The translations under genes and the position numbers were made by a program. A stretch of DNA of 64,000 nt from Mangifera indica (taxonomy: Eukaryota > Streptophyta > Magnoliopsida > Sapindales > Anacardiaceae): NCBI RefSeq assembly GCF_011075055.1, contig NW_025401101.1:186001-250000 (forward strand), given 5' to 3'. Below, piece after piece: positions 6,246 through 62,176 of this stretch. Position 1 is the stretch's first letter; each line of letters opens with the position of its first letter. Under the pieces are notes generated by a model. It had not been told where the DNA came from. It did no database searches and was given only the letters and a program-made list of their open reading frames with translations.

Positions 6246-6847
6246 AGTCAAAAGACTATTTCCCCCTAAGTTTTAATGCAAAAGTAAATATATATCTGTG
6301 GACTTTCAAAAACTCAAACATTCACCCATGACTAAATTTCTGTTAAAAATCTCAATTAGAGTTAAGGTTAAAATCGTCATTTACTAAAACAATTTAAAAA
6401 ATTAAAGTTTTATCATTTTTCTTCCATAGGTTTAAAAATCTTACAATTTTTCCCCATTCAAAGTTTCCAAGTTTTGAAAAGTGACCATTTCACCCTCAAA
6501 TTCCTAAGTTTTCTTCCTTCCCTCTTCAGTGGCCATCTCCTACGATGGTGACCATATGAAGATCAGACAAAAAATCGACGACCATTTTCAGTAGATGAAT
6601 CTTCGTCTCCGTCAATGAAAAGACATCATCCCTTCATTAACAAAGATGAAGAGGCATTGTCTTTTTGTCTCTGTCAACGAATATTCATCTACCATAAATG
6701 GTTGTCGACTCTCTGTCTAGTCTTCAGAGTTCGTCGTCGCTAGAGAGGAGAGAAAGAAAATTGAGGGATTTATGGGTGAAATGTTACTTTTTAAAAATTT
6801 AGGGGGGAAATGGATAAATTTTAATTTTTTTAATAAATTATATTTTA
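6246..6847. mobile_element. Foldback element (copy b), left part
   Basis: Starts AGTCAAAAGACTATTTCCCC, matching the terminal sequence of the foldback family (GGCCAAAWGACTATTTCCC). Its interior resembles copies d and e: a pyrimidine-rich stretch, a CGTCGTC-rich core at 6530-6740, then the purine-rich return arm. It breaks off at 6847, exactly where the giant Mutator-like element begins. A plausible right end lies at 27840-27961; the two parts together give about 720 bp, close to the 777 bp of copy d. No target duplication is preserved. Confidence 0.55.
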
Positions 6848-6872
6848 GGGAAATTATAAAAAATAGGCAAAA
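6848..6872 (+). repeat. Left terminal inverted repeat of the giant element
   Basis: Pairs with 27806-27830 at 22 of 25 positions (hand alignment). It is immediately preceded by the 9-bp target duplication TATATTTTA at 6839-6847. Confidence 0.8.
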
Positions 6873-6954
6873 GTAAAGGGGCTTAAGAAAATTACTCAAA
6901 AAATTCAGATTAAAGCAAAAATGCTCAACATTTGTGAAATGTCTAAACTACCCC

Positions 6955-6964
6955 TATATATAAA
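6955..6964 (+). promoter_or_regulatory. Putative TATA box of the Ulp1 gene
   Basis: TATATATAAA lies about 160 bp upstream of the proposed start codon at 7120, just inside the left terminus of the element. It fits a plant core promoter, but the transcription start is not known. Confidence 0.4.
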
Positions 6965-6984
6965 CAAGGCAAAATTTCATATTT

Positions 6985-7545
6985 CCCACTGTGAAACGTC
7001 CACTGTCACTGTGCAAATCCAAAGAAAAAGAGACTTTTTTCCCACTGTCAATCGTCGCCCACTATCGTCCCACTGTCAAGCCGATTTCCGTCGATTTTCT
7101 TGCTTTCCGGCGAGCGAAAATGGTCAAGAAGGTTAGTATATCTTCCGTAATCTTGTTTGAATCAAGTTATTGTTCATATTATTGAGATTTGAGTGAGATT
7201 TTACGGTTTGAAACATTATGGTTTCGATTTTGTACAATGTTTAATATGTTTTGATTCTTGGCTGTTTTCATTGAATTTGTTGAGGGGTTTTGTGTTATAG
7301 CCTATGTAGATTCGATTTATGTTGAAATTGGAGGCCGAAATGACCAAATTTTGGCCGAAAAAAGCCTCCGAAGCCATCGGCAGTCCGACAGTGGGAACAG
7401 TGTTTCCCACTGTCATGAAGAAAACTCCCACTGTGACAGTGGGTTAGGGGGGTTTAGTGGCTTTTTAAAAACATTAGGGATCTGGTGGCATTATTAGTCC
7501 ACTGTGGGCGTTTCTGAAATTTGCCATGTGTGACAGTGGGTTGGG
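6985..7545. repeat. Cluster of CCCACTGTCA / TGACAGTGGG motifs
   Basis: The core CACTGT and its complement ACAGTG recur about ten or more times in 560 bp, in both orientations. Examples lie near 6988, 7001, 7007, 7040, 7070, 7388, 7397, 7407, 7428, 7436, 7500 and 7530. Several are paired head to head, e.g. CCCACTGTGACAGTGGG at 7427-7443, a near-perfect palindrome. The cluster sits in the leader and first intron of the Ulp1 gene. Function unknown. Confidence 0.65.
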
Positions 7546-10500
7546 GTGAAAATTTACTTTTTTGAAATTGTAGGGGCGGTAAGAGATTCGAAAATTATTG
7601 AGGGGCAAGGGATAAATATTAGACATGTTTGTAATAGAAATTTTTTTAGGGGGTAAATTGATATTTTTCACATCTAGGGTTTCTCGATTATAGTTTTCGA
7701 ATTTTATATCCGTTTTTTTTGTTTTAAGATTTTTCAATATGTAGTTTTCGAATTTGAGATTAAGTTTTTCGTTTTTTGTGCCTACGGACATATTTTACGA
7801 TGTAATGACCTCATATTTTTTAGATTTTCAAATAATTTTTCTATTATTGTCATTCTAGGGCATTTCAACATTTAGAATTCGAATTTCAATTCCGTTTTTT
7901 CGAATTTCACCGTTTTACGATATAACGACTAGTATTTTTCAGATTTCTGAAGAATTTTTCGATTGTTACCATTCTAGGGTATTTCAACATTTAGAATTCG
8001 AATTTCAATTCCGTTTTTTCGAATTTCACCGTTTTACGATATATCGACTAGTATTTTTCAGATTTCTGAAGAATTTTTTGATTGTTACCATTCTAGGGTA
8101 TTTCAACTTTTAGAATTCGAATTTTAGTTCTGTTTTTTTGAATTTCACCGTTTTACGATATATCGACTCGTATTTTTCAGATTTCTGAAGAATTTTTTTA
8201 TTGTTACCATTCTAGGGTATTTCAACTTTTAGAATTCAAATTTCAGTTTCGTTTTTTCGAATTTCACCGTTTTACGATATATCGACTCGTATTTTTCAGA
8301 TTTCCAAAAATTTTTTCGATTGTTACCATTCTAGGGTATTTCAACTTTTAGAATTCGAATTTCAGTTTCGTTTTTTCAAATTTCACCGTTTTACGATATA
8401 TCAACTCGTATTTTTCATATTTTCGAAGAATTTTTCGATTATTGCCATTCTAAGGTATTTCAACTTTTAGAATTTGAATTTCAGTTCCGTTTTTTTGAAT
8501 TTCACTATTTTACGATATATCGACTCGTATTTTTCAGATTTTTGAAGAATTTTTCAATTGTTACCATTCTAGGGTATTTCAACTTTTAGAATTTGAATTT
8601 CAGTTCCGTTTTTTTGATTGTTAACATTCTATGGTATTTTATCGTATAAAATTCTAATTTCAGTTTTGTTTTTTCCTTTTATCTGTTTTACAATCCTGAA
8701 ATCTTATTTTTAAAATTTTGCGATCACCTTTTTTATTGTTTTGTATTTTTTATCTTTTTATGATTTTTCCATGAAGACATTTGTTTACATATTTGCTATT
8801 TATGAATGACTAACGAATTTTGTAAATTTTTGCAGGATATTTCTCGCAAAAGAAGTCGTGTTGAAAGTGAGCTGCGAATCCCCGATGAGTCCAGACACTT
8901 CCAAACAAATCTGATATGTCGTGCACAACGCAGGATTTCATCTACACTGACTCCGGAGTAGCTACGACTATTTGAGAGGACATGTTTCGGGTATCTTCTT
9001 TGTTTATCCAAGACCAAATTCTCTGGTATATTAGTTCATTCATTTCTACTCCGGTAGCTACATCGATTCTCTGCCAGAGACGAGTTTTGGTTTCGGATTA
9101 GCGGGGTTAATGTTCGTTTTAGCTTGTTTGAGTTTGCTTTGCTGACGGGTCTTTCGTTTAGCCGGTGCATTGATATCTCTTCATATATTCCTCGCTCCTC
9201 CAGACATAGGATCAGAGATATGTACTTTCGAGGTTGTCCGAAGGTGCAGTATCATGGCCTAGAGCGTGTTTTCTTGTCGAGGCCATGAGGGGGATGACGA
9301 TATTGACGCTGTCAAGATGGCCTTGTTGTCACATGGTTTTGTTAGGAAATGATCGACGAAAGAAGGTGTCTTCAGAGTATTTACAGTTGGTTGATCATCT
9401 GGATGGGTTTAATTCCTACCCCTGGGGTGTCCCCGTGTGGCAGATGACATACGAGTCTATGTCACAAGCGAGTGACAGAGTATGCTCCAGACGGATGCCT
9501 GAGATGCGTAGATATGACCTCTACGGATTTTCTTTCGCATTTCAGGTTAGTTTTAATTTATTGATTTTATATATTAATTGGAAAAAAATATGAATTGATT
9601 TATTTAAATCGTAATTGATTATATTGCAGTATTAGATATATGAGACTTTTGACACGTTATTCGATTGGATTAACCTTGTTGATCTCTATGCGTCCCCACG
9701 AATGTTTAGGTGGCATACGCGAGACGTCCCTAGTTGAACTCATATAGGTCATATTTTCCTTGGTGATATTATATTTTATATGAAATATCATTTACCATTT
9801 TATCCTTTTCATGCATATAGGGAACCGGTATTGATATATTATCGATCGAGGGTTCTCCCCGAACACCTTCCTCGAAAGTTGAGGTTAACTTTTTTTAAAA
9901 AATGTCATTGATCGATTTGTCTTTTCAATTATATTGTTTATTTAATGATGTTTTGACTCTTTTTCAGGACGAGCAATTATGATTACTTACTGATATCCCG
10001 AGCTCAACCAAAAAGATAGTGGATATTGGTTCACAGGAGGAGGACTTCCAGGAGGACATTTTTGAGGGCATCCATATTGAGGTATATCAATTATACTTAG
10101 TATATAAATATTTATATATATTGGTCACTGAGATGTTGAAAATTACAATTTTTCAGTCCGTCGAGGGAGCACGTGTGGTGGACTTGACCATGATTTAGGA
10201 TTCTCCAGCTAAACCTCCTCCCGCATACATGAAGAAGGTAAAATAAATCGATTAATGTTAATTGTTACATAGGATGGAATGATGAATTAATTGATTTTTG
10301 GGATCATGCAGCTGATTCATACAACACGTGGTCGGACTGTCTGGAAGGATCCGCTGGTTCACACCCCGTATACAAATCCACTAAAAGGGAGGGTGAAACG
10401 GTAACTTAGGACCATTCCATCCTCTGCCTCAGAGCGTGAGGAATCTTTCCTCACATGGTACACCAGAGCTGCAGCTTCCGACGCACATGATGTCTACTTC

Positions 10501-11368
10501 ATCGAATCGAAGTCGAAGGATAGTTTTTGACGGCTTGTGGTAGAGTGTCGTCAATGGCTGACCGATGATGTAAGTTGTCTATACTATATAATTTGGTAAA
10601 AATTTTGATATATTTATCAATAACTAACACGTGAATTTGTTTATACCATTTTAGCATGTGGATTCCTTTTTGGCTTTTTTATGTTGGCATCAGGACGATC
10701 ACCGTGCAACTGTCTCACAGCGTTGGATGACTGCCCACACATTCTTTGGAGGCCATATTGAGATGGCTTGGAAGAGTTGACAGACCACATCGATTGATGA
10801 GTTTGAGTTTTCGGGGCTCTTCACGAGGATGGTTGAGGCAGCGTACACCCCGGGATTGTTATACAAACAATAGGGGATGATCAATCAGGTATAGTATATA
10901 TATATATTTCTATTACATTGAATTGGTTGACGAGAACGATAATTAACTAAAATTTGTCATTGTTTATAGGTTTACATCCCTATAAACTTCGACAACACAC
11001 ATTGGGTCACCGAAGTTGTAGATTTTTTAAAGTGCTCGATTATGGTAAACGATTCAGAGGTATCATATTCAGGGAATATGAGGTCTCTTGAGCAGCGTAT
11101 GCGACCGTATACGACATTCATACCCATGTTATTAGAGGCGACGAGTTTTTAGACAACTTATGAGAGGACTCCATGACATGATTCTCTCGTTTTGTATCGA
11201 GCGACGGATGTCCCTTAGCAGGGATTAGGCTTTGGTGACTGTGGCATGTTTATGTTACGTTTTTTTGAGTGTTTGGCATTGTCACGGAGCGTCGATTTTC
11301 CCCGAGAGTCGTCTACCTCTATACGTTGACGTTTAGCATCGCAATTGTATTTTCACCATATCAAGTAG
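7120..11368 (+). pseudogene. Ulp1-like (C48) cysteine protease gene, decayed
   Basis: Exons are inferred from splice sites and reading: 7120-7131, 8836-9545, 9630-9883, 9968-10081, 10157-10237, 10312-10569, 10655-10888 and 10970-11368. Exon 2 encodes a domain like plant DUF1985, ending with DLYGFSFAFQ at about 9520-9545. The last exon has the Ulp1 catalytic layout: His in NTHWV (codon 11000), Asp in VNDS (11051) and Cys in GDCGMF (11240). Ulp1 proteases of this family cleave SUMO-type conjugates; transposon-borne copies have no settled role. The frame is broken by stops (near 8958, 9283, 10198, 10782, 10872 and others) and at least one frameshift near 9350, while splice sites still look good, so decay seems recent. 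The left repeat block lies in its first intron. Confidence 0.8.
7740..8690 (-). repeat. Left block of the 119-bp repeat (about 8 copies)
   Basis: Spacing of the repeated TCTAGGGTATTTCAAC landmark is 119 bp (7858, 7977, 8096, 8215). Each unit is the reverse complement of units in the 11537-27474 block. Outer copies are the most diverged. The block lies in the first intron of the Ulp1 gene. Confidence 0.92.
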
Positions 11369-12575
11369 CTCACAGATGTATATTTAGTTAGCTCATTATT
11401 TATTTATCGTTCTCCATATGTTTGTATGTATATATTTATTGTATGTGCGTATGTGTATGATGTATTTTATCTGTCATTATATATAGATATGTATTTGATT
11501 TCATTTTATATGTGATTTGAGTGATGTTACTATCCAACAATAATTGAAAAATTCTTCAAAAATTTAGATAATACAAGTAGAAATATCGTAAAACGATGAA
11601 ATTCGAAAAAATAAAACTAAAAATCGAATTCTAAAAGTTGAAATACCCTAGAATGACAACAATCGAAAAATTCTTCAAAAATCTAAAAAATAAGAGTCGA
11701 TATATTGTAAAACGATAAAATTTGAAAAAGCTAAACCGAAATTTGAATTCTAAAAGTTGAAATACCTTAGAATGGCAATAATTAAAAAATTGTTTGAAAA
11801 TCTGAAAAATATAAGTTGATATATCGTAAAACAATGGAATTCAAAAAGACAAAACTGAAATTCGAATTCTTAAAGTTGAAATACCCTAGAATGACAACAA
11901 TCAAAAAATTATTCAAAAATCTGAAAAATACAAGTCGATATATCATAAAACGGTGAAATTTAAAAAAACAAAACTGAAATTCTAATTCTAAAAGTTGAAA
12001 TACCCTAGAATGACAATAATCGAAAAATTCTTGAAAAATTTAAAAAATACAAGTCGATATATCATAAAACGATGAAATTCAAAAAAACGAAACTGAAATT
12101 CGAATTCTAAAAGTTGAAATACCTTAGAATGACAATAATTGAAAAATTCTTTGAAAATTTGAAAAATAGAAGTTGATATATCGTAAAACGGTGAAATTTG
12201 AAAAAACGGAACTAAAATTCGAATTCTAAAAGTTTAAATACCCTAGAATGGTAGTAATTGAAAAATTCTTCGAAAATCTGAAAAATACAAGTCGATATAT
12301 CGTAAAACGATGAAATTCAAAAAAACAGAACTGAAATTCGAATTCTAAAAGTTAAAATACCCTAAAATGGCAACAATAAAAAAATTCTTCAAAAATCTAA
12401 AAATACGAGTCGATGTATCGTAAAACGGTGAAATTCAAAAAAATGGAATTGAAATTCGAATTCTAAAAGTTGAAATACCCTAGAATGGCAACAATCGAAA
12501 AATTCTACGAAAATCTAAAAAATACGAGTCGATATATCATAAAACAGTAAAATTTGAAAAGACTGAACTAAAATT

Positions 12576-15150
12576 TGAATTCTAAAAGTTGAAATACTCT
12601 AGAATGACAATAATCAAAAAATTCTTTCGAAAATTTGAAAAATATAAGTCGATATATCTTAAAACGGTTAAATTCGAAAAAACTGAACTGAAATTTGAAT
12701 TTTTAAAGTTGAAATACTTTAGAATGGGAACAATAAAAAAATTATTCAAAAATCTGAAAAATACGAGTCGATATATCGTAAAACGGTAAAATTCAAAAAA
12801 ACAGAATTGAAATTCGAATTCTAAAAGTTGAAATACCCTAGAATGGCAATAATCAAAAAATTCTTCGAAAATCTGAAAAATGCGAGTCGATATATCGTAA
12901 AACGGTGAAATTCGAAAAAACAAAACTAAAATTCGAATTCTAAAAGTTGAAATACCCTAAAATGACAACAATCGAAAAATTCTTCGAAAATCTAAAAAAT
13001 AAGAGTCGATATATCGTAAAACGGTAAAATTTGAAAAAACTGAACTAAAATTTGAATTCTAAGAGTTGAAATACCTTAGAATGGCAACAATCGAAAAATT
13101 ATTCGAAAATCTGAAAAATATAAGTCGATATATCATAAAACGGTGGAATTCGAAAAAACAAAACTGAAATTCGAATTCTAAAAGTTGAAATACCCTAGAA
13201 TGGCAACAATCGAAAAATTCTTCGAAAATCTAAAAAATGCGAGTCAATATATCGTAAAACAGTAAAATTTGAAAAGACTGAATTGAAATTTGAATTCTAA
13301 AAGTTGAAATACCCAGGAATGTCAATAATCGAAAAATTCTTTCGAAAATCTGAAAAATATAAGTTGATATATCGTAAAACGATAAAATTCGAAAAAACTG
13401 AACTGAAATTCAAATTTTTAAAGTGGAAATACCTTAGAATGGGAACAATCGAAAAATTATTCAAAAATCTGAAAAATACAAGTCGATATATCGTAAAACG
13501 GTAAAATTCAAAAAAACAGAAATGAAATTCGAATTCTAAAAGTTGAAATACCCTAGAATGACAATAATCAAAAAATTCTTCGAAAATCTGAAAAATGCGA
13601 GTCGATATATCGTAAAACGGTGAAATTCGAAAAAACAAAACTAAAATTCGAATTCTAAAAGTTGAAATACCCTAGAATGACAACAATCAAAAAATTCTTC
13701 GAAAATCTAAAAAATAAGAGTCGATATATCGTAAAACGGTAAAATTTGAAAAAACTGAACTAAAATTTGAATTCTAAAAGTTGAAATACCTTAGAATGGC
13801 AACAATCGAAAAATTATTCGAAAATCTGAAAAATATAAGTCGATATATTGTAAAACGGTGGAATTCGAAAAAACAAAACTGAAATTCGAATTCTAAAAGT
13901 TGAAATACCCTAGAATGGCAACAATCGAAAAATTCTTCGAAAATCTAAAAAATGCTAGTCAATATATCGTAAAACAGTAAAATTTGAAAAGACTGAATTG
14001 AAATTTGAATTCTAAAAGTTGAAATACCTAGGAATGTCAATAATCGAAAAATTCTTTCGAAAATCTAAAAAATATAAGTCGATATATCGTAAATCGATGA
14101 AATTCGAAAAAACTGAATTGAAATTTGAATTTTTAAAGTGGAAATACCTTAGAATGGGAACAATCGAAAAATTGTTCAAAAATCTGAAAAATACGAGTCG
14201 ATATATTGTAAAACAGTAAAATTCGTAAAAACGGAACTGAAATTCGAATTCTAAAAGTTGAAATACCCTAGAATGACAATAATCGAAAAATTCTTCGAAA
14301 ATCTGAAAAATACGAGTCGATATATCATAAACCGGTGATATTCGAAAAAACAAAACAAAAATTCGAATTATAAAAGTTGAAATACCCTAGAATGACAACA
14401 ATCGAAAAATTCTTCGAAAATCTAAAAAATAAGAGTCGATATATCGTAAAACGGTAAAATTTGAAAAAACTGAACTAAAATTTGAATTCTAAAAGTTGAA
14501 ATACCTTAGAATGGCAACAATCGAAAAATTATTCGAAAACTGAAAAATATAAGTCGATATATCGTAAAACGATGGAATTCGAAAAAACAAAACTGAAATT
14601 CGAATTCTAAAAGTTGAAATACCCTAGAATGGCAACAATCGAAAAATTCTTCGAAAATCTAAAAAATGCGAGTCAATATATCGTAAAACAGTAAAATTTG
14701 AAAAGACTGAATTGAAATTTGAATTCTAAAAGTTGAAATACCCAGGAATGTCAATAATCAAAAAATTCTTTCGAAAATCTGAAAAATATAAGTCGATATA
14801 TCGTAAAACGATGAAATTCAAAAAAACTGAACTGAAATTCGAATTTTTAAAATGGAAATACCTTAGAATGGGAACAATCGAAAAATTATTCAAAAATCTG
14901 AAAAATACGAGTCGATATATTGTAAAACAGTAAAATTCGAAAAAACGGAACTGAAATTCGAATTCTAAAAGTTGAAATACCCTAGAATGACAATAATCGA
15001 AAAATTTTTCGAAAATCTGAAAAATACGAGTCGATATATCATAAACCGGTGATATTCGAAAAAACAAAACAAAAATTCGAATTCTAAAAGTTGAAATACC
15101 CTAGAATGACAACAATCGAAAAATTCTTCGAAAATCTAAAAAATAAGAAT
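12576..15150 (+). repeat. 715-bp higher-order repeat (six monomers)
   Basis: The same variant monomer, containing TTCTTTCGAAAATCTGAAAA-type sequence, recurs at about 12582, 13297, 14012 and 14726, spacings of 715, 715 and 714 bp, i.e. six 119-bp units. Corresponding monomers in successive periods resemble each other more than their neighbours do, which is the definition of a higher-order repeat. Confidence 0.85.
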
Positions 15151-15791
15151 CGATATATCATAAAACGGTGAAATTCGAAAAAACGGAACTGAAATTCAAA
15201 TTCTAAAAGTTGAAATACCCTAGAATGGCAATAATCGAAAAATTCTTCGAAAATTTAAAAAATACGAGTCGATATATCGTAAAACGGTGAAATTTGAAAA
15301 AACGAAACTACAATTCGAATTCTAAAAGTTGAAATACCCTAGAATGGCAATAATTGAAAAATTCTTTGAAAATTTGAAAAATACGAGTCGATATATCATA
15401 AAACGGTGAAATTCGAAAAAACGGAACTAAAATTCGAATTCTAAAAGTTGAAATACTCTAGAATGGTAGTAATCGAAAAATTCTTCGAAAATCTGAAAAA
15501 TGCAAGTCGATATATCGTAAAACGGTGAAATTCGAAAAAACAGAACTAAAATTCGAATTCTAAAAGTACAAATACCCTAGAACAGTAACAATCGAAAATT
15601 TCTTCAGAAATCTGAAAAATACGAGTCGATGTATCGTAAAAGGGTGAAATTCAAAAAAATGGAACTAAAATTCAAATTCTAAAAGTTGTAATACCCTAGA
15701 ATGATAACAATCGAAAAATTCTTCGAAAATCTAAAAAATACGAGTCGATATATCGTAAAACAGTAAAATTTGAAAAGACTGAACTGAAATT

Positions 15792-18700
15792 TGAATTCTA
15801 AAAGTTGAAATACCCTAGAATGGCAATAATCGAAAAATTCTTTCGAAAATTTGAAAAATATAAGTCGATATATTGTAAAACGGTGAAATTCGAAAAAACT
15901 GAACTAAAATTCGAATTTTTAAAGTTGAAATACCTTAGAATGGGAACAATCAAAAAATTGTTCAAAAATTTGAAAAACACGAGCCGATATATCGTAAAAC
16001 GTAAAATTCATAAAAACGAAACTGAAATTCGAATTCTAAAAGTTGAAATACCCTAGAATGGTAATAGTCAAAAAATTCTTCGAAAATCTGAAAAATATGA
16101 GTCGATATATCGTAAAACGGTGAAATTCAAAAAAACGGAACTGAAATTCGAATTCTAAAAGTTGAAATACCCTAGAATGGATGTAATCAAAAAATTCTTC
16201 GAAAATCTGAAAAATATGAGTCGATATATCGTAAAATGGTGAAATGCGAAAAAACGGAACTGAAATTCGAATTCTAAAAGTTGAAATACCCTAGAATGGT
16301 AATAATCGAAAAATTCTTCGAAAATCTGTAAAATACGAGTCGATATATCATAAAATGGTGAAATTCGAAAAAACGAAACTGAAATTCGAATTTTTAAAGT
16401 GGAAATACCTTAGAATGGGAACAATCGAAAAATTGTTCAAAAATCTGAAAAATACGAGTCGATATATCGTAAAACAGTAAAATTCGAAAAAACGGAACTG
16501 AAATTCGAATTCTAAAAGTTGAAATACCCTAGAATGGCAATAATCGAAAAATTCTTCGAAAATCTGAAAAATACGAGTCGATATATCATAAAACGGTGAA
16601 ATTCAAAAAAACAAAGCTAAAATTCGAATTCTAAAAGTTGAAATACTCTAGAATAACAACAATCGAAAAATTCTTCGAAAATCTAAAAAATAAGAGTCGA
16701 TATATCGTAGAACGGTGAAATTCGAATTCTAAAAGTTGAAATACCCTAGAATGACAATAATCAAAAAATTCTTCGAAAATTTGAAAAATACGAGTCGATA
16801 TATCGTAAAACGGTGAAATTCAAAAAAACAGAACTAAAATTCGAATTGTAAAAGTGAAAATACCCTAGAACGGCAACAATCGAAAAATTCTTCAGAAATC
16901 TGAAAAATACGATTCGATGTATCGTAAAAGGGTGAAATTCGAAAAAATGGAACTGAAATTCGAATTCTAAAAGTTGAAATACCCTAGAATGTCAACAATC
17001 AAAAAATTCTTCAAAAATCTGAAAAATACGAGTCAATATATCGTAAAACAGTAAAATTTGAAAAGACTGAACTGAAATTTGAATTCTAAAAGTTGAAATA
17101 CCCTAGAATGGCAATAATCGAAAAATTCTTTCGAAAATTTGAAAAATATAAGTCGATATATTGTAAAACGGTAAAATTCGAAAAAACTGAACTAAAATTC
17201 GAATTTTTAAAGTTGAAATACCTTTGAATGGGAACAATCGAAAAATTGTTCAAAAATTTGAAAAACACGAGCCGATATATCGTAAAACGTAAAACTCATA
17301 AAAACGGAACTGAAATTCGAATTCTAAAAGTTGAAATACCCTAGAATGGTAATAATAAAAAAATTCTTCGAAAATCTGAAAAATATGAGTCGATATATCG
17401 TAAAACGGTGAAATTCAAAAAAACGGAACTGAAATTCGAATTCTAAAAGTTGAAATACCCTAGAATGGATGTAATCAAAAAATTCTTCGAAAATCTGAAA
17501 AATATGGGCCGATATATCGTAAAATGGTGAAATGCGAAAAAACGGAACTGAAATTCGAATTCTAAAAGTTGAAATACCCTAGAATGGTAATAATCGAAAA
17601 ATTCTTCGAAAATCTGAAAAATATGAGTTGATATATCGTAAAATGGTGAAATGCGAAAAAACGGAACTGAAATTCGAATTCTAAAAGTTGAAATACCCTA
17701 GAATGGTAATAATCGAAAAATTCTTCGAAAATCTGAAAAATACGAGTCGATATATCATAAAATGGTGAAATTCGAAAAAACGAAATTGAAATTCGAATTT
17801 TTAAAGTGGAAATACCTTAGAATGGGAACAATCGAAAAATTGTTCAAACATCTGAAGAACACGAGCCGATATATCGTAAAACGTAAAATTCAAAAAAACT
17901 GAACTAAAATTCGAATTTTTAAAGTGGAAATACCTTAGAATGGGAACAATAGAAAAATTGTTCAAAAATCTGAAAAATACGAGTCGATATATCGTAGAAC
18001 AGTAAAATTCGAAAAAACGGAACTGAAATTCGAATTCTAAAAGTTGAAATACCCTAGAATGGCAATAATCGAAAAATTCTTCGAAAATCTGAAAAATACG
18101 AGTCGATATATCATAAAACGGTGAAATTCAAAAAAACAAAGCTAAAATTCGAATTCTAAAAGTTGAAATACCCTACAATAACAACAATCGAAAAATTCTT
18201 CGAAAATATAAAAAATAAGAGTCGATATATCGTAAAACGGTGAAATTCGAATTCTAAAAGTTGAAATACCCTAGAAGGACAATAATCAAAAAATTCTTCG
18301 AAAATTTGAAAAATACGAGTCGATATATCGTAAAACGGTGAAATTCAAAAAAACAGAACTAAATTTCGAATTCTAAAAGTTAAAATACCCTAGAACGGCA
18401 ACAATCGAAAAATTCTTCAGAAATCTGAAAAATACGATTCGATGTATCGTAAAAGGGTGAAATTCGAAAAAATGGAACTGAAATTCGAATTCTAAAAGTT
18501 GAAATACCCTAGATTGTCAACAATCGAAAAATTCTTCAAAAATCTGAAAAATACGAGTCAATATATCGTAAAACAGTAAAATTTGAAAAGACTGAACTGA
18601 AATTTGAATTCTAAAAGTTGAAATACCCTAGAATGGGAACAATAGAAAAATTGTTCAAAAATCTGAAAAATACGAGTCGATATATCGTAAAACAGTAAAA

Positions 18701-20226
18701 TTCGAAAAAACGGAACTGAAATTCGAATTCTAAAAGTTGAAATACCCTAGAATGACAATAATCGAAAAATTCTTCGAAAATCTGAAAAATACGAGTCGAT
18801 ATATCATAAAACGGTGAAATTCAAAAAAAAAAAGCTAAAATTCGAATTCTAAAAGTTGAAATACCCTACAATAACAACAATCGAAAAATTCTTCCAAAAT
18901 CTAAAAAATAAGAGTCGATATATCGTAAAACGGTGAAATTCGAATTCTAAAAGTTGAAATACCCTAGAATGACAATAATCAAAAAATTCTTCGAAAATTT
19001 GAAAAATACGAGTCGATATATCGTAGAACGGTGAAATTCAAAAAAACAGAACTAAAATTCGAATTCTAAAAGTTAAAATACCCTAGAACGGCAACAACCG
19101 AAAAATTTTTCAGAAATCTGAAAAATACGATTCGATGTATCGTAAAAGGGTGAAATTCGAAAAAATGGAACTGAAATTCGAATTCTAAAAGTTGAAATAC
19201 CCTTGAATGGTTATAATCGAAAAATTCTTCGAAAATCTGAAAAATACGAGTCGATATATCATAAAATGGTGTAATTCGAAAAAACGGAACTGAAATCGAA
19301 TTCTAAAAGTTGAAATACCCTAGAATAGTAATAATCGAAAAATTCTTCGAAAATCTGAAAAATACAGTTCGATATATCATAAAATGGTGAAATTCGAAAA
19401 AACGGAACTGAAATTCGAATTTTTAAAATGGAAATACCTTAGAATGGTAACAATCGAAAAATTGTTCAAACATCTGAAGAACACGAGCCGATATATCGTA
19501 AAACGTAAAATTCGAAAAAACTGAACAAAAATTCGAATTTTTAAAGTGGAAATACCTTAGAATGGGAACAATAGAAAAATTGTTCAAAAATCTGAAAAAT
19601 ACGAGTCGATATATCGTAAAACAGTAAAATTCGAAAAAACGGAACTGAAATTCGAATTCTAAAAGTTGAAATACCGTAGATTGGCAATAATCGAAAAATT
19701 CTTCGAAAATCTGAAAAATACGAGTCGATATATCATAAAACGGTGAAATTCAAAAAAACAAAGCTAAAATTCGAATTCTAAAAATTGAAATACCCTACAA
19801 TAACAACAATCGAAAAATTCTTCGAAAATCTAAAAAATAAGAGTCGATATATCGTAAAACGGTGAAATTCGAATTCTAAAAGTTGAAATACCCTAGAATG
19901 ACAATAATAAAAAAATTCTTCGAAAATTTGAAAAATACGAGTCGATATATCGTAGAACGGTGAAATTCAAAAAAACAGAACTAAAATTCGAATTCTAAAA
20001 GTTAAAATACCCTAGAACGGTAACAATCGAAAAATTCTTCAGAAATCTGAAAAATACGATTCGATGTATCGTAAAAGGGTGAAATTCGAAAAAATGGAAC
20101 TGAAATTCGAATTCTAAAAGTTGAAATACCCTAGAATGTCAACAATCGAAAAATTCTTCAAAAATCTGAAAAATACGAGTCAATATATCGTAAAACAGTA
20201 AAATTTGAAAAGACTGAACTGAAATT
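15792..20226 (+). repeat. Mosaic of 1,288-bp periods and rearranged monomers
   Basis: The marker monomer recurs at about 15798 and 17086 (1,288 bp apart) and next at 20233, a gap of 3,147 bp that is not a multiple of the period. Partial blocks within the gap, such as the runs starting near 17880, 18640 and 19560, repeat parts of the eleven-monomer order. This looks like unequal exchange within the array. Confidence 0.7.
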
Positions 20227-23200
20227 TGAATTCTAAAAGTTGAAATACCCTAGAATGGCAATAATCGAAAAATTCTTTCGAAAATTTGAAAAATATAAGT
20301 CCATATATCGTAAAACGGTAAAATTCGAAAAAACTGAACTGAAATTCGAATTTTTAAAGTTGAAATACCTTAGAATGGGAACGATTGAAAAATTGTTCAA
20401 AAATCTGAAAAACACGAGCCGATATATCGTAAAACGTAAAATTCAAAAAAACGGAACTGAAATTCGAATTCTAAAAGTTGAAATACCCTAGAATGGTAAT
20501 AATCGAAAAATTCTTCGAAAATCTGAAAAATATGAGTCGATATATCGTAAAACAGTGAAATTCGAAAAAACGGAACTGAAATCGAATTCTAAAAGTTGAA
20601 ATACCCTAGAATAGTAATAATCGAAAAATTCTTCGAAAATCTGGAAAATACAGTTCGATATATCATAAAATGGTGAAATTCGAAAAAACGGAACTGAAAT
20701 TCGAATTTTTAAAGTGGAAATACCTTAGAATGGTAACAATCAAAAATTGTTCAAACATCTGAAGAACACGAGCCGATATATCGTAAAACGTAAAATTCGA
20801 AAAAACTGAACAAAAATTCGAATGTTTAAAGTGGAAATACCTTAGAATGGGAACAATAGAAAAATTGTTCAAAAATCTGAAAAATACGAGTCGATATATC
20901 GTAAAACAGTAAAATTCGAAAAAACGGAACTGAAATTCGAATTCTAAAAGTTGAAATCCCCCAGAATGGCAATAATCGAAAAATTCTTCGAAAATCTGAA
21001 AAATACGAGTCGATATATCATAAAACGGTGAAATTCAAAAAAACAAAGCTAAAATTCGAATTCTAAAAGTTGAAATACCCTACAATAACAACAATCGAAA
21101 AATTCTTCGAAAATCTAAAAAATAAGAGTCGATATATCGTAAAACGGTGAAATTCGAATTCTAAAAGTTGAAATACCCTAGAATGACAATAATCAAAAAA
21201 TTCTTCGAAAATTTGAAAAATACGAGTCGATATATCGTAGAACGGTGAAATTAAAAAAAACAGAACTAAAATTCGAATTCTAAAAGTTAAAATACCCTAG
21301 AACGGCAACAATCGAAAAATTCTTCAGAAATCTGAAAAATACGATTCGATGTATCGTAAAAGGGTGAAATTCGAAAAAAATGGAACTGAAATTCGAATTC
21401 TAAAAGTTGAAATACCCTAGAATGTCAACAATCGAAAAATTCTTCAAAAATCTGAAAAATACGAGTCAATATATCGTAAAACAGTAAAATTTGAAAAGAC
21501 TGAACTGAAATTTGAATTCTAAAAGTTGAAATACCCTAGAATGGCAATAATCGAAAAATTCTTTCGAAAATTTGAAAAATATAAGTCCATATATCGTAAA
21601 ACGGTAAAATTCGAAAAAACTGAACTGAAATTCGAATTTTTAAAGTTGAAATACCTTAGAATGGGAACGATTGAAAAATTGTTCAAAAATCTGAAAAACA
21701 CGAGCCGATATATCGTAAAACGTAAAATTCAAAAAAACGGAACTGAAATTCGAATTCTAAAAGTTGAAATACCCTAGAATGGTAATAATCGAAAAATTCT
21801 TCGAAAATCTGAAAAATATGAGTCGATATATCATAAAATGGTGTAATTCGAAAAAACGGAACTGAAATCGAATTCTAAAAGTTGAAATACCCTAGAATAG
21901 TAATAATCGAAAAATTCTTCGAAAATCTGAAAAATACAGTTCGATATATCATAAAATGGTGAAATTCGAAAAAACGGAACTGAAATTCGAATTTTTAAAA
22001 TGGAAATACCTTAGAATGGTAACAATCGAAAAATTGTTCAAACATCTGAAGAACACGAGCCGATATATCGTAAAACGTAAAATTCGAAAAAACTGAACAA
22101 AAATTCGAATTTTTAAAGTGGAAATACCTTAGAATGGGAACAATAGAAAAATTGTTCAAAAATCTGAAAAATACGAGTCGATATATCGTAAAACAGTAAA
22201 ATTCGAAAAAACGGAACTGAAATTCGAATTCTAAAAGTTGAAATACCGTAGATTGGCAATAATCGAAAAATTCTTCGAAAATCTGAAAAATACGAGTCGA
22301 TATATCATAAAACGGTGAAATTCAAAAAAACAAAGCTAAAATTCGAATTCTAAAATTGAAATACCCTACAATAACAACAATCGAAAAATTCTTCGAAAAT
22401 CTAAAAAATAAGAGTCGATATATCGTAAAACGGTGAAATTCGAATTCTAAAAGTTGAAATACCCTAGAATGACAATAATAAAAAAATTCTTCGAAAATTT
22501 GAAAAATACGAGTCGATATATCGTAGAACGGTGAAATTCAAAAAAAAGAACTAAAATTCGAATTCTAAAAGTTAAAATACCCTAGAACGGTAACAATCGA
22601 AAAATTCTTCAGAAATCTGAAAAATACGATTCGATGTATCGTAAAAGGGTGAAATTCGAAAAAATGGAACTGAAATTCGAATTCTAAAAGTTGAAATACC
22701 CTAGAATGTCAACAATCGAAAAATTCTTCAAAAATCTGAAAAATACGAGTCAATATATCGTAAAACAGTAAAATTTGAAAAGACTGAACTGAAATTTGAA
22801 TTCTAAAAGTTGAAATACCCTAGAATGGCAATAATCGAAAAATTCTTTCGAAAATCTGAAAAATATAAGTCCATATATCGTAAAACGGTAAAATTCGAAA
22901 AAACTGAACTGAAATTCGAATTTTTAAAGTTGAAATACCTTAGAATGGGAACGATTGAAAAATTGTTCAAAAATCTGAAAAACACGAGCCGATATATCGT
23001 AAAACGTAAAATTCAAAAAAACGGAACTGAAATTCGAATTCTAAAAGTTGAAATACCCTAGAATGGTAATAATCGAAAAATTCTTCGAAAATCTGAAAAA
23101 TATGAGTCGATATATCGTAAAACAGTGAAATTCGAAAAAACGGAACTGAAATCGAATTCTAAAAGTTGAAATACCCTAGAATAGTAATAATCGAAAAATT

Positions 23201-26200
23201 CTTCGAAAATCTGGAAAATACAGTTCGATATATAATAAAATGGTGAAATTCGAAAAAACGGAACTGAAATTCGAATTTTTAAAGTGGAAATACCTTAGAA
23301 TGGTAACAATCAAAAAATTGTTCAAACATCTGAAGAACACGAGCCGATATATCGTAAAACGTAAAATTCGAAAAAACTGAACAAAAATTCGAATGTTTAA
23401 AGTGGAAATACCTTAGAATGGGAACAATAGAAAAATTGTTCAAAAATCTGAAAAATACGAGTCGATATATCGTAAAACAGTAAAATTCGAAAAAACGGAA
23501 CTGAAATTCGAATTCTAAAAGTTGAAATCCCCCAGAATGGCAATAATCGAAAAATTCTTCGAAAATCTGAAAAATACGAGTCGATATATCATAAAACGGT
23601 GAAATTCAAAAAAACAAAGCTAAAATTCGAATTCTAAAAGTTGAAATACCCTACAATAACAACAATCGAAAAATTCTTCGAAAATCTAAAAAATAAGAGT
23701 CGATATATCGTAAAACGGTGAAATTCGAATTCTAAAAGTTGAAATACCCTAGAATGACAATAATAAAAAAATTCTTCGAAAATTTGAAAAATACGAGTCG
23801 ATATATCGTAGAACGGTGAAATTAAAAAAAACAGAACTAAAATTCGAATTCTAAAAGTTAAAATACCCTAGAACGGCAACAATCGAAAAATTCTTCAGAA
23901 ATCTGAAAAATACGATTCGATGTATCGTAAAAGGGTGAAATTCGAAAAAATGGAACTGAAATTCGAATTCTAAAAGTTGAAATACCCTAGAATGTCAACA
24001 ATCGAAAAATTCTTCAAAAATCTGAAAAATACGAGTCAATATATCGTAAAACAGTAAAATTTGAAAAGACTGAACTGAAATTTGAATTCTAAAAGTTGAA
24101 ATACCCTAGAATGGCAATAATCGAAAAATTCTTTCGAAAATTTGAAAAATATAAGTCCATATATCGTAAAACGGTAAAATTCGAAAAAACTGAACTGAAA
24201 TTCGAATTTTTAAAGTTGAAATACCTTAGAATGGGAACGATTGAAAAATTGTTCAAAAATCTGAAAAACACGAGCCGATATATCGTAAAACGTAAAATTC
24301 AAAAAAACGGAACTGAAATTCGAATTCTAAAAGTTGAAATACCCTAGAATGGTAATAATCGAAAAATTCTTCGAAAATCTGAAAAATATGAGTCGATATA
24401 TCGTAAAACAGTGAAATTCGAAAAAACGGAACTGAAATCGAATTCTAAAAGTTGAAATACCCTAGAATAGTAATAATCGAAAAATTCTTCGAAAATCTGG
24501 AAAATACAGTTCGATATATCATAAAATGGTGAAATTCGAAAAAATGGAACTGAAATTCGAATTTTTAAAGTGGAAATACCTTAGAATGGTAACAATCAAA
24601 AAATTGTTCAAACATCTGAAGAACACGAGCCGATATATCGTAAAACGTAAAATTCGAAAAAACTGAACAAAAATTCGAATGTTTAAAGTGGAAATACCTT
24701 AGAATGGGAACAATAGAAAAATTGTTCAAAAATCTGAAAAATACGAGTCGATGTATCGTAAAACAGTAAAATTCGAAAAAACGGAACTGAAATTCGAATT
24801 CTAAAAGTTGAAATACCCTAGAATGGCAATAATCGAAAAATTCTTCGAAAATCTGAAAAATACGAGTCGATATATCATAAAACGGTGAAATTCAAAAAAA
24901 CAAAACTAAAATTCGAATTCTAAAAGTTGAAATACCCTACAATAACAACAATCGAAAAATTCTTCGAAAATCTAAAAAGTAAGAGTCGATATATCGTAAA
25001 ACGGTGAAATTCGAATTCTAAAAGTTGAAATACCCTAGAATGACAATAATCAAAAAATTCTTCGAAAATTTGAAAAATACGAGTCGATATATCGTAGAAC
25101 GGTGAAATTCAAAAAAACTGAACTAAAATTCGAATTCTAAAAGTTAAAATACCCTAGAACGGCAACAATCGAAAAATTCTTCAGAAATCTGAAAAATACG
25201 ATTCGATGTATCGTAAAAGGGTGAAATTCGAAAAAATGGAACTGAAATTCGAATTCTAAAAGTTGAAATACCCTAGAATGTCAACAATCGAAAAATTCTT
25301 CAAAAATCTGAAAAATACGAGTCAATATATCGTAAAACAGTAAAATTTGAAAAGACTGAACTGAAATTTGAATTCTAAAAGTTGAAATACCCTAGAATGG
25401 CAATAATCGAAAAATTCTTTCGAAAATTTGAAAAATATAAGTCCATATATCGTAAAACGGTAAAATTCGAAAAAACTGAACTGAAATTCGAATTTTTAAA
25501 GTTGAAATACCTTAGAATGGGAACGATTGAAAAATTGTTCAAAAATCTGAAAAACACGAGCCCATATATCGTAAAACGTAAAATTCAAAAAAACGGAACT
25601 GAAATTCGAATTCTAAAAGTTGAAATACCCTAGAATGGTAATAATCGAAAAATTCTTCGAAAATCTGAAAAATATGAGTCGATATATCGTAAAACAGTGA
25701 AATTCGAAAAAACGGAACTGAAATCGAATTCTAAAAGTTGAAATACCCTAGAATAGTAATAATCGAAAAATTCTTCGAAAATCTGGAAAATATAGTTCGA
25801 TATATCATAAAATGGTGAAATTCGAAAAAACGGAACTGAAATTCGAATTTTTAAAGTGGAAATACCTTAGAATGGTAACAATCGAAAAATTGTTCAAACA
25901 TCTGAAGAACACGAGCCGATATATCGTAAAACGTAAAATTCGAAAAAACTGAACAAAAATTCGAATGTTTAAAGTGGAAATACCTTAGAATGGAAACAAT
26001 AGAAAAATTGTTCAAAAATCTGAAAAATACGAGTCGATATATCGTAAAACAGTAAAATTCGAAAAAACGGAACTGAAATTCGAATTCTAAAAGTTGAAAT
26101 ACCCTAGAATGGCAATAATCGAAAAATTCTTCGAAAATCTGAAAAATACGAGTCGATATATCATAAAACGGTGAAATTCAAAAAAACAAAGCTAAAATTC

Positions 26201-27010
26201 GAATTCTAAAAGTTGAAATACCCTACAATAACAATAATCGAAAAATTCTTCGAAAATCTAAAAAATAAGAGTCGATATATCGTAAAACGGTGAAATTCGA
26301 ATTCTAAAAGTTGAAATACCCTAGAATGACAATAATCAAAAAATTCTTTGAAAATTTGAAAAATACGAGTCGATATATCGTAGAACGGTGAAATTCAAAA
26401 AAACAGAACTAAAATTCGAATTCTAAAAGTTAAAATACCCTAGAACGGCAACAATCGAAAAATTCTTCAGAAATCTGAAAAATACGATTCGATGTATCGT
26501 AAAAGGGTGAAATTCGAAAAAATGGAACTGAAATTCGAATTCTAAAAGTTGAAATACCCTAGAATGTCAACAATCGAAAAATTCTTCAAAAATCTGAAAA
26601 ATACGAGTCAATATATCGTAAAACAGTAAAATTTGGAAAGACTGAACTGAAATTTGAATTCTAAAAGTTGAAATACCCTAGAATGGCAATAATCGAAAAA
26701 TTCTTTCGAAAATTTGAAAAATATAAGTCCATATATCGTAAAACGGTAAAATTCGAAAAAACTGAACTGAAATTCGAATTTTTAAAGTTGAAATACCTTA
26801 GAATGGGAACGATTGAAAAATTGTTCAAAAATCTGAAAAACACGAGCCCATATATCGTAAAACGTAAAATTCAAAAAAACGGAACTGAAATTCGAATTCT
26901 AAAAGTTGAAATACCCTAGAATGGTAATAATCGAAAAATTCTTCGAAAATCTGAAAAATATGAGTTGATATATCGTAAAACAGTGAAATTCGAAAAAACG
27001 GAACTGAAAT
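20227..27010 (+). repeat. 1,286-bp higher-order repeat (eleven monomers)
   Basis: The marker monomer recurs at about 20233, 21519, 22803, 24089, 25375 and 26661, spacings of 1286, 1284, 1286, 1286 and 1286 bp. Counting from 24089 gives eleven distinguishable monomers per period, including one short unit of about 101 bp that lacks the AAAAACGGAACT segment. Successive periods are almost identical, so this zone was homogenised most recently. Confidence 0.9.
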
Positions 27011-27479
27011 TCTAATTCTAAAAGTTGAAATACCCTTGAATGGTTATAATCGAAAAATTCTTCGAAAATCTGAAAAATACGAGTCGATATATCATAAAAT
27101 GGTGAAATTCGAAAAAACGGAACTGAAATCGAATTCTAAAAGTTGAAATACCCTAGAATAGTAATAATCGAAAAATTCTTCGAAAATCTGAAAAATACGA
27201 TTCGATATATCATAAAATGGTGAAATTCGAAAAAACGGAACTGAAATCGAATTCTAAAAGTTGAAATACCCTAGAATAGTAATAATCGAAAAATTCTTCG
27301 AAAATCTGAAAAATACGATTCGATATATCATAAAATGGTGAAATTCGAAAAAACGGAACTGAAATTCGAATTCTAAAAGTTGAAATATCTTAGAATGACA
27401 ACAATCAAAAAATTCTTCAGAAATCTGAAAAATACGAATCGATATATCGTAAAACGGCAAAATTTGAAAAAACTTAAAA

Positions 27480-27830
27480 TTTCATTTGTAATGCTCCTAC
27501 AATGTTTAATATCAAAATACCCCCCAAATTTTAATAACAGTTCATTTGACCCCTCAATTATCTATTCCTAAATTTCATTAAAAAATTTATAATACTCTTA
27601 TAATGTTTACTATCAAAATACCTCCGTAATTTTAATAAAATTTTATTTAACCCCTCATAATGAGTGAGGAGGGTTTATTAAATGAGGGGAAGAGTAATTT
27701 TGGTATTTTAAAAAAAATCATGGGTATTTTTACTTAGAAATAGTAAATTTGGGTATTTTTGTTTGAAAATAGTGACTTTAAATATTTTTACTTAGTGGGA
27801 GGGTATTTTGACTATTTTTAATAATTTCTC
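27480..27830. repeat. Right subterminal region and terminus of the giant element
   Basis: Between array and terminus are two direct copies of a roughly 100-bp segment (about 27487-27560 and 27588-27660; shared text TATCAAAATACC and TTTAACCCCTC). In reverse complement these resemble the left subterminal stretch near 7595-7670 (ATTGAGGGG, then TTTTTAGGGGGTAAATTGATATT). The last 25 bp are the right terminal repeat, followed by the target duplication at 27831-27839. Confidence 0.65.
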
Positions 27831-27839
27831 TATATTTTA

Positions 27840-56444: not shown

Positions 56445-57419
56445 TGATGTGGTTTTAATTCAAGTTCAACTAATAGGTGAGTTATATTAGGATGACCAAG
56501 CAAGTTCAATCCCAAACACAACTTCTAAACTACCAAACTCAATAGAAAAAGAACAATTTCCAGCCAAATAGAATTCAGGAGAGATTTCAGCCAAGGAAGA
56601 AAATGATAATAAATGAGATTAAGAACAAACAAACAACAATCTAACCAATAAACCAAGGCCTAAAGGGAAACCCACCAGCCTTGAATCACCACCAACCCCT
56701 TGGTCAAGAGTTGGATAAAGAGAAATTGCAAACAATTGCAAGAAAGACTTTCTTTAATATTCAAGCTAAGTAAAAAACGTACATAAGCCAAGGATAGTTT
56801 AAATAGGCTTCAAACTACAATTAAATGAAACCTAAATGAAGTTACATTACATTTCAAGCTCATTTCAAAGGCATTTGGCTCTAATCTTCATGTTAATCCC
56901 AAAGGAGAATGCAAGGCAAGGGAAGGCCAAATTGTCATGAATTGTCTTGCCAAAAGAGGTAATTCCTAGAGCCATGTGATATGTCAACTCTTGTCTCTTT
57001 CTTTGAGCTTCTTTGACTTGCTTAGCTTCACCTAAGTCAACTAACAAACTGAATTAAGCATAAACTAGCACAAACAACAAGTAAAATGCATAATTAGACA
57101 ATAAAATATCTAGAGCTAATTAAACACTCTATTGGGCTTGTTGGACTTCTAATGGATCCAAGTGATAAAAGAGTAACCAAAGGAGGGCTTAGGACCCCAA
57201 AATGAAAGAAGGGACGAAATGGGCTTGAACATAGGTAGGTTTTGTGCTTGACTCTCTTCAAGGCAAGGTTTTGGGCTCCACACTTCATGTAGGGCCGAAT
57301 TTAACAAGTGATGAGGTTGGACTTGGTATTCTTCTATTGGTCTTGATTGGATTGCACTTGATGGAGTCTTGGATGGACTATGGATTGAGCATGGATCATC
57401 CATTTTCAGTTTTGGATCA
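56445..57419 (-). repeat. 3' LTR of the gypsy element
   Basis: 975 bp, minus-strand start TGATCCAAAACTG and end CCACATCA. Near-identical to 62177-63151. Confidence 0.95.
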
Positions 57420-57721
57420 TCCTCCCGCACGTGAAAAGGATTTGCCCTCAAATCCTCTAATGCCATGTCTTCAAGATATGGGGATAAATCTCCCACATTG
57501 AATGTAGCCGACACAGCCCCAAATTCATCCGGTAGTGCAATTTTGTAGGCATTGTCATTCACCTTTGCAATCACCTCAAAAGGACCATCGGCTCTTGGTG
57601 CAAGCTTACTCTTCCGCTTTGATGGAAACCTCTCTTTCCTCAAATGCAGCCATACTAAGTCACCCGGTTGGAAAAAGTGTTGGCCTCCTATGCTTGTTGG
57701 CTTTCTTTTTGTAGGCTTCAT
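57149..57721 (-). CDS. Integrase C-terminal segment, shifted frame
   Basis: 190-codon ORF overlapping the end of the main polyprotein ORF in another frame. From about 57690 it encodes the integrase tail typical of gypsy elements (FFQPGDLVWLHLRKERFPS, then GPFEVIAKVNDNAYKI and LSPYLED). This should be the continuation of the main ORF, so a one-base frameshift near 57670-57700, mutational or programmed, separates them. The ORF runs on into the LTR and stops at 57149; its last part is probably not real protein. Confidence 0.75.
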   Translation of the reverse strand: MKPTKRKPTSIGGQHFFQPGDLVWLHLRKERFPSKRKSKLAPRADGPFEVIAKVNDNAYKIALPDEFGAVSATFNVGDLSPYLEDMALEDLRANPFHVREDDPKLKMDDPCSIHSPSKTPSSAIQSRPIEEYQVQPHHLLNSALHEVWSPKPCLEESQAQNLPMFKPISSLLSFWGPKPSFGYSFITWIH

Positions 57722-61856: not shown

Positions 61857-61883
61857 TGAGTGATAGGTATTTAGTGTGCGGTG

Positions 61884-62069: not shown

Positions 62070-62162
62070 AACCTTACTCACACAAAGAGTTCAACAACAA
62101 CCACCGGCCTTTGCATCCGGGAACAACCAAGTAAAAGAAAACTCACCTTGCTCCAACCTAGT

Positions 62163-62174
62163 GCTCTGATACCA
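62163..62174 (-). other. Primer-binding site of the gypsy element
   Basis: TGGTATCAGAGC on the minus strand, 2 bp from the 5' LTR, complementary to the 3' end of initiator-Met tRNA. Confidence 0.9.
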
Positions 62175-62176
62175 AA

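Follow-up and report, generated by a model that had tools for sequence, protein, structure and literature searches.

A Mutator-like element of 20,983 bp lies at positions 6848-27830 of the window, which is the whole 64,000-nucleotide stretch of Mangifera indica DNA that was analysed (contig NW_025401101.1, here C29). A single array of 119-bp repeats makes up 75.9% of this element. The insertion also exists in a second version, on C16, and as read from the monomers of the two versions, most of the array's length arose after insertion and separately in each version. The explanation as a whole, which combines the structure of the family, independent growth in place, a proposed mechanism and a proposed binding role for the arrays, is one in which we place high confidence. 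The features of the window copy are as follows.

6839..6847, no strand: left copy of the target duplication, TATATTTTA; the identical 9 bp flank the C16 version
6848..7792, plus strand: left terminal and subterminal region, with the end GGGAAATTAT...; the left-end pattern has 494 matches genome-wide and 0 in the control
7793..8617, minus strand: 119-bp array on the left, with 6.9 monomers, located 5' of the DUF1985-Ulp1 gene
8676..11537, plus strand: relic of a DUF1985-Ulp1 (VANC/KAONASHI-like) gene, Pfam PF09331 and PF02902, in two frames with stops
11537..11538, no strand: junction where the gene end abuts the right array; by comparison with the relative L039, a transposase segment (about 4.2 kb there) is absent
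11538..27473, plus strand: right 119-bp array, 133.9 monomers by best-chain measurement
19745..26172, plus strand: five successive copies of an 11-monomer higher-order unit (about 1,286 bp), pairwise 0.23-1.40% apart
27480..27830, plus strand: right terminal region, ending ...AATTTCTC, identified by end matches and the target duplication
27831..27839, no strand: right copy of the target duplication, matching the left copy

Both ends of the element recur elsewhere in the genome. The left 353 bp gave 40 scored matches (of 1,562 candidates), 39 of which start at base 1 and one at base 2, and the right 351 bp gave 40 (of 1,569 candidates), 39 of which stop at bases 347-351 and one at base 326. The termini proposed in the preliminary description are borne out, and the perfect 9-bp duplication that it reported is also confirmed. 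Among 17 copies with the window included, 12 have perfect 9-bp duplications, three have one mismatch and in two none was found; these 17 include two pairs that are versions of one insertion, and a one-base shift was needed at the left end in three of the 12 perfect copies and at the right end in one of the three mismatched ones. Long terminal inverted repeats containing the arrays, as in Foldback and Tetris elements, are absent: leaving the arrays aside, inverted similarity is confined to some 23-25 bp at the tips. When the outer 400 bp of the two ends are aligned locally, the best stretch is 23 bp long with 21 matches, and left and right ends match over at most 25 bp among the family stretches compared (the comparison of element copies covered 19 stretches). 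The window contains zero N, and a search of the whole window against Rfam at gathering thresholds found nothing.

The family to which this copy belongs is large, with the 494 left-end matches found at up to 3 mismatches, and a 33-bp monomer pattern has 1,875 genomic matches at up to 2 mismatches (control 0). A full-length member on C2 is 11,727 bp long with a perfect 9-bp target duplication, and carries two convergent genes, one DUF1985-Ulp1 and one mudrA-type transposase, with an array 5' of each. C2 and L039 (with its flanks) are the two relatives that show both genes and the arrays 5' of them. The L039 transposase has DBD_Tnp_Mut and SWIM pieces over the cut-off and a MULE piece that falls short of its own (26.1 against 27.6 bits), and the genomic transposase match at this place reaches 78.1 bits and contains one TAG. 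L040 and L041 carry a segment homologous to that of L039, and in all three the Ulp1 gene is opposite in orientation to mudrA. Transposase matches were paired with monomer places for 103 of 150 matches and 86 of 100 places, and with left ends for all 150 matches and the 100 listed of the 494 left ends. Most of the short copies fetched keep the DUF1985-Ulp1 gene at least partly and have no transposase.

The window copy, which lacks the transposase segment, is a non-autonomous member of this family. The Ulp1-type gene noticed in the preliminary description is present in a decayed state: it is about 1.1 kb shorter than in longer relatives (e.g. C13, C12a, C3a, C11 and C12b), its Peptidase_C48 (PF02902) piece at 10970-11140 scores 34.8 bits against a cut-off of 20.7 and is followed shortly downstream by in-frame stops, and its two DUF1985 (PF09331) pieces, in two frames, score 34.1 and 24.3 bits, both below the cut-off of 35.1. 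Both domains are above their cut-offs in other family copies.

A mirror pair of arrays is usual in the family, and its occurrence would be explained by an array sitting 5' of each of two convergent genes. An inversion in the window copy was considered as the origin of the mirror order and dropped, because other copies with both arrays show them likewise. The window copy departs from the family in how long its right array is. The right array was sized at 27 other loci, 26 of which have 2.1-17.5 monomers and one 38.7; the number of loci is an upper bound, as some small contigs, C33 and C182 among them, may represent second versions of insertions elsewhere, and at some loci the size is a distance divided by 119, with the letters not inspected. 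With 15.9 kb of uninterrupted monomers, the window's right array has the contiguity of a satellite, and both arrays together make up about 80% of the element. The inverted 119-bp repeat described on both sides of the gene was found as such, and the estimates of about 8 and 135 monomers and 76% satellite are close to the measured values. Array lengths are those of the assembly for both the window and C16, and the measurement by best single chain per arm can miss broken ends (for C15 it gives 4.9 left monomers, where the comparison of copies shows more).

The second version on C16 has the same target duplication as the window insertion and flanks that are 99% alike, with a divergence of 0.91% over 5,380 bp and 1.17% over 4,973 bp, up to the limits fetched. 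C16 looked at first like an independently transposed sibling, and the shared duplication and flanks speak against that. In near-full monomers, the right arrays number 135 in the window and 81 on C16, a difference of 54, while both left arrays have 7. The two right arrays have monomer types in common: at 5% clustering, 32 common monomer types cover 130 of the 135 window monomers and 80 of the 81 on C16; at 4%, 23 types cover 93 and 48; and at 6%, 27 types cover 130 and 81. Distinct monomers number 101 of 135 in the window and 46 of 81 on C16, and no exact repeat exceeds 667 bp in the former or 1,130 bp in the latter. Exact repeats of these lengths are short enough for long reads to place the copies.

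The two versions differ in what has been amplified. The higher-order lag is 11 monomers in the window and 16, 20 and 4 on C16. The window's 11-monomer copies are on average 0.88% apart (ten pairs), and the amplified C16 copies are 0.14-0.21% apart for stretches of 12 to 20 monomers and 0.72% for a stretch of 6, whereas matched monomers between the versions, in hand-picked pairs, differ by 2.9% (4 pairs) and 3.2% (5 pairs). Because different blocks were amplified in each version, and their copies are closer (0.1-1.4%) than are monomers paired across the two versions (3%), most of the growth was independent and in place. Within the window's right array, 129.9 of 135 monomers have their nearest relative in the same array, with 47.9 expected (second versions left out). 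In the left array only 0.5 of 7 do, giving no sign of local growth there. Of two further insertions present in two versions, one has arrays of unchanged length and the other arrays that differ by about one monomer, so that large growth is not the rule. The mechanism may have been replication slippage or unequal exchange, the latter involving sister chromatids or homologues; single monomers would have been added at first, and blocks of several once the array was long.

That C16 and C29 are recent segmental duplicates rather than two haplotypes is rather improbable. The divergence of about 1% and the lack of a match to window positions 61001-64000 at the expected place on C16 (among 40 scored of 1,001 candidates, for a stretch that is mostly retroelement) would fit duplication. 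However, C29 is small (621 kb), the flanks match as far as they were fetched, both contigs carry a retroelement fragment upstream, 137 kb away on C29 and 141 kb away on C16, and the small contigs C23 and C118 likewise pair with large ones. Growth in place follows whether the two are duplicates or alleles. The small size of C29 could also raise the suspicion that the 134-monomer array, or its difference from C16, is an error from mis-joined repeats. This is very improbable given the many distinct monomers and the lengths of the longest exact repeats in both arrays, and each higher-order copy has its own differences.

If the donor's array had been long beforehand and had simply moved with the element, this would account for the 23-32 monomer types, depending on threshold, that are common to both versions. 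The array probably did number a few dozen monomers before the versions parted, judging from these shared types; it then exceeded the right arrays of 26 of the 27 other loci measured, and a first phase of growth may predate the insertion. Yet the later growth, which is most of the length, differs between versions of one insertion, and the other loci have the short right arrays given above, so a long donor array is unlikely as the main source of the length. Growth after insertion remains the preferred reading, and in-place amplification of a subterminal repeat, as the preliminary description suggested, is supported by the differently grown C16 array. The same description saw here a possible route by which transposons seed satellites. 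What is shown is growth inside an element rather than seeding elsewhere: among the 100 exact monomer matches listed of 1,875 (C1-C19), places outside the C16 version have at most 3 each.

Within the monomer, conservation at non-CpG C/G positions is higher in a 27-bp block than in the rest (0.912 vs 0.776, permutation p 0.0012; left arms alone p 0.0074, right arms alone p 0.0016), in a test that counts the arms of related copies as independent observations and uses a block length chosen by the analyst. The arrays may be binding sites for a protein of the element, most likely the DUF1985-Ulp1 product acting as an anti-silencing factor, or else the transposase; such putative sites would explain the mirror order in the copies. 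The VANC21 motif YAGTATTAY (PMC5735166) occurs on neither strand of the window element, and the idea that it marks the arrays was dropped for that reason, but other VANCs have motifs of their own. VANC acts as an anti-silencing factor in Arabidopsis VANDALs, and a VANC-like role for the mango arrays is suggested by analogy. It is quite possible that the arrays are instead putative subterminal transposase-binding sites, whose growth either helped transposition or had no effect on fitness. Whether or not a copy has the transposase gene, its arrays sit near the ends in mirror order, and the Tetris paper (PMC4079207) discusses binding sites in repeats within transposon ends. On the other hand, each of the two genes has an array 5' of it, and it is DUF1985-Ulp1, not the transposase, of which most fetched short copies retain at least a part.

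The family resembles several known systems. The 9-bp target duplication, perfect in 12 of 17 copies and in C2, is as in MULEs (PMC2528002), and a mudrA-type transposase is found in the family (L039). The DUF1985 gene with its Ulp1 domain, the Ulp1 gene opposite mudrA, the absence of long terminal inverted repeats, and fast-changing non-coding tandem repeats, including upstream of the transposase gene, are like the non-TIR VANDAL and KAONASHI (KI-MULE) elements (PMC5735166, PMC10398659, PMC2528002, PMC13317346), a likeness in described features. The passages on VANDAL and KAONASHI in these sources mention no array as large as the window's, and a review (PMC13317346) gives three genes whereas two are recognised in the full-length C2 copy. 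Tetris of Drosophila virilis (PMC4079207) has an 8-10-bp target duplication, a suggested place in the Mutator superfamily and tandem repeats in both inverted ends. Two of its allelic copies differ in repeat number, and arrays of up to 66 copies are ascribed there to growth within the element. In contrast to the mango family, with its terminal inverted match of about 23 bp and two-gene relatives, Tetris has long TIRs and no coding capacity, and its alleles have 3 and 4 repeats where the versions of the window insertion have 134 and 81 with different higher-order units. The 3'UTR repeats of Ogre in Lathyrus sativus (PMC7004042) likewise form short arrays in a dispersed transposon with occasional long expansions; Ogre is an LTR retrotransposon, however, and as described there its long arrays lie mainly in primary constrictions with single loci not resolved.

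It is already known from Tetris and Ogre that transposon repeats can grow into satellites; the novelty here is that the element is a plant Mutator-like one, and that a single insertion is available in two versions that have grown differently. A transposon-to-satellite origin is usually inferred from end products, and here it is caught in mid-process. The two versions have common array ends and two to three dozen common monomer types with different amplified blocks, which makes the units and order of growth readable directly, and related plants would allow the rate of growth to be measured. In this family, moreover, array position goes with the 5' ends of genes, linking the birth of a satellite with VANDAL-type anti-silencing biology. 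A bolder reading, doubtful for now, is that the arrays are putative sites recognised by an anti-silencing protein that the element itself encodes, and that an arms race with silencing selects for more of them. If so, satellites would be a by-product of transposon counter-defence, here with two independent expansions of different units.

In the genome searched (391 Mb, 241 contigs), 39 of 40 scored matches to the left 353 bp of the window's Mutator-like element begin at base 1, and 39 of 40 scored matches to its right 351 bp reach base 347-351, so the matching termini proposed in the preliminary description agree with the ends of other copies. A 34-bp left-end pattern allowing up to three mismatches occurs 494 times genome-wide, against 0 for the control, and the terminal inverted match of the element is 21/23 bp. 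The perfect 9-bp target-site duplication (TSD) also stood: TATATTTTA is at both borders, and among 17 copies checked the TSD was perfect in 12, had one mismatch in three and was not found in two. The two arrays of a 119-bp monomer were measured as opposite-facing and very unequal, as had been described, and the Ulp1-type gene between them was found with DUF1985 pieces too, but decayed. The right terminus contains a 73-bp direct duplication (window 27484-27657; 83.6% identity, spacing 101 bp).

Features of the window element and its second version
Window: C29:186001-250000
Window 6848-27830: the element, 20,983 bp
Window 7793-8617, minus strand: left array, 6.9 monomers
Window 11538-27473, plus strand: right array, 133.9 monomers
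C16:8077675-8092319: second version of the insertion, on contig C16, with a TSD identical to the window's

Parts of the element were compared by blast with the window itself, with its counterpart on C16 and with 17 further stretches, 19 in all. Copies with both arrays have a constant order of left end, minus-strand array, gene, plus-strand array and right end; the gene is partly or wholly absent in some, and the C10b copy lacks the left array. At one locus (L029/L030, on contigs C118 and C3b), each of the two versions carries two family elements arranged head to head with about 125 bp between them. Arrays were measured in 17 elements representing 15 loci, two of which were each measured in two versions. 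Left arrays hold 3.5-14.3 monomers, C10b excepted, and right arrays 2.1-15.1, except for C12a (38.7), C16 (80.6) and the window (133.9). Pairing gene-end with right-end matches by coordinate gave 16 right arrays, 10 at new loci, with 3.7-17.5 monomers apart from the window and C16, and three transposase-bearing copies have about 4.6, 4.6 and 10.6 as counted from blast matches. Comparison with other genomic copies thus covered about 28 loci, among which the window's right array is by far the longest and C12a, whose array has a different lag (3), is the only other locus above 20 monomers.

The flanks of the two versions, on C16 and the window's contig C29, diverge by 0.91% over 5,380 bp and 1.17% over 4,973 bp, up to the limits of the compared sequence, and both contigs carry a retroelement fragment upstream of the insertion, at 137 kb (C29) and 141 kb (C16). 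On the other side of the insertion, window 61001-64000 had no counterpart at the expected C16 place among the best 40 of 1,001 candidates. Most likely, C29 represents a haplotig of C16. Each left array contains seven monomers, and the right arrays contain 135 (window) and 81 (C16) near-full monomers. Clustering monomers at 4, 5 and 6% gave 43, 37 and 32 types in the window and 36, 33 and 27 in C16, with 23, 32 and 27 in common. Window monomers match those of C16 best with a mean of 0.970, versus 0.906 for C12a at another locus.

The right arrays agree at both outer ends and differ in their interiors. The window's has a repeated 11-mer (about 1,286 bp) toward its right side and a 6-mer on its left, which is older; that of C16 has repeated 16-mer, 20-mer and 4-mer units made of left-part types. 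Copies of the 11-mer are 0.23-1.40% apart (mean 0.88%), and the long units of C16 0.14-0.21%, with 0.72% in a 6-monomer stretch, versus 2.9-3.2% for nine pairs of matched monomers between versions. Both late expansions therefore postdate the split of the versions. An assembly error in array length would be a rival explanation, but the longest exact repeats are 667 bp in the window and 1,130 bp in C16, and distinct monomers number 101 out of 135 and 46 out of 81, respectively. The same TSD and flanks around a differently built right array thus bear out the proposal that a subterminal repeat was amplified in place, and by sequence comparison the right array appears to have grown there. The common types suggest that the array held a few dozen monomers before the versions parted.

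Monomers were also assigned their nearest relatives, leaving out the second versions C16 and C23. In the window's right array, 129.9 of 135 have it in the same array (random expectation 47.9), as do 39.2 of 138 right monomers (6.1) and 20.6 of 99 left monomers (2.0) pooled from other copies, so arrays tend toward local homogenisation; in the window's left array only 0.5 of 7 do. Unequal exchange or slippage would homogenise arrays in this way. At non-CpG C/G positions, conservation is higher in a 27-bp block than in the remainder of the monomer, the arms of related copies not being independent, and the block is a candidate binding site.

Divergence between C29 and C16 is higher inside the element than outside it: 4.9% in the left array, 4.3% at the right end, 2.3% in the gene and 1.3% at the left end, mostly as transitions. 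Decay of methylated cytosines is likely behind this. The 4-5% in the left array (7793-8617) and right end (27480-27830), versus about 1% in the flanks, is suggestive of rapid decay driven by methylation, or of exchange with other copies. In two other version pairs, the C10a/C23 arrays are unchanged, and C118 and C3b are about one monomer apart (left region-to-gene distance 1,232 vs 1,109 bp; gaps of 18-104 bp).

A search for the MULE transposase domain scored 150 of 1,545 candidate matches. Comparing 103 of the 150 with family parts gave six pairings within 9 kb, and at least six of the 150 lie downstream of and opposite to a left end, among the 100 left ends listed. In stretch L039 with its flanks, the left array is followed by a DUF1985-Ulp1 gene (+), then by a mudrA-type gene (-), and lastly by the right array with the right end. 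This copy has a rearranged left end, and its transposase match has one stop. The partial stretch L040 has the gene end, transposase, right array and right end. A copy on C2 (L044 and L041; 9923891-9935617, 11,727 bp) has both arrays, both genes and a perfect 9-bp TSD, TAATACAAA. No copy was found intact. Transposase-bearing copies (L041 6519-7351, L040 3649-4095) repeat a portion of the right terminal region at about 388 bp spacing, with no such recurrence seen in short copies among the 19 blasted stretches.

Because the two genes are convergent, each array lies 5' of one gene and is identically directed relative to it, which would explain the "inverted" satellite with no inversion needed. In the window the gene end directly abuts the right array. 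By eye, among 17 elements, this junction is shared by the window, C16, C15 and C10b; a second type occurs in C12a, C3a, C16b, C11, C12b, C9b, C37, C9a and C1; and C10a, C23, C2 and C13 have neither. The family has probably lost the transposase on more than one occasion.

Elsewhere in the window, a retroelement occupies 57149-61949 (-); its 1,429-aa frame carries motifs that by eye are those of gag, protease, reverse transcriptase and integrase. Near-identical copies of 61001-63151 occur on other contigs, with none at the matching C16 place among the best 40 of 1,001 candidates. Pieces at 33252-35759 (-), which we take by eye to be copia-like polyprotein, are flanked by similar short AAATC-rich tandem repeats (32121-32190 and 36483-36548). 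A 32-bp tandem repeat (3.2 copies, 95% match) lies outside the element at 40101-40203.

In Arabidopsis, the VANC proteins of VANDALs, which are Mutator-like elements, are reported to contain DUF1985, to bind motifs in tandem repeats, including some upstream of VANA, and to remove silencing (PMC5735166, PMC10398659); one review calls Ulp1-bearing VANC genes KIU (PMC13317346). The mango family's gene content and array position fit the VANC system, and by this analogy an anti-silencing role for the arrays would be compatible with both.

It is already known that repeats within transposons can grow into satellite arrays: Tetris of Drosophila virilis is described with two allelic copies of 3 and 4 repeats and arrays of up to 66 (PMC4079207), and Ogre elements with internal repeats grown into satellite arrays (PMC7004042). 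No plant Mutator-like case appeared in the titles and abstract openings of the literature searched, which is no proof of absence, and by term counts "Mutator", "MULE" and "VANDAL" are absent from the main text of a 2025 review of transposon-derived satellites (PMC12628747). New here are the setting, a plant Mutator-like family with full-length members; the association of the two arrays with gene 5' ends; and a single insertion in two versions whose arrays have grown independently and are differently structured.
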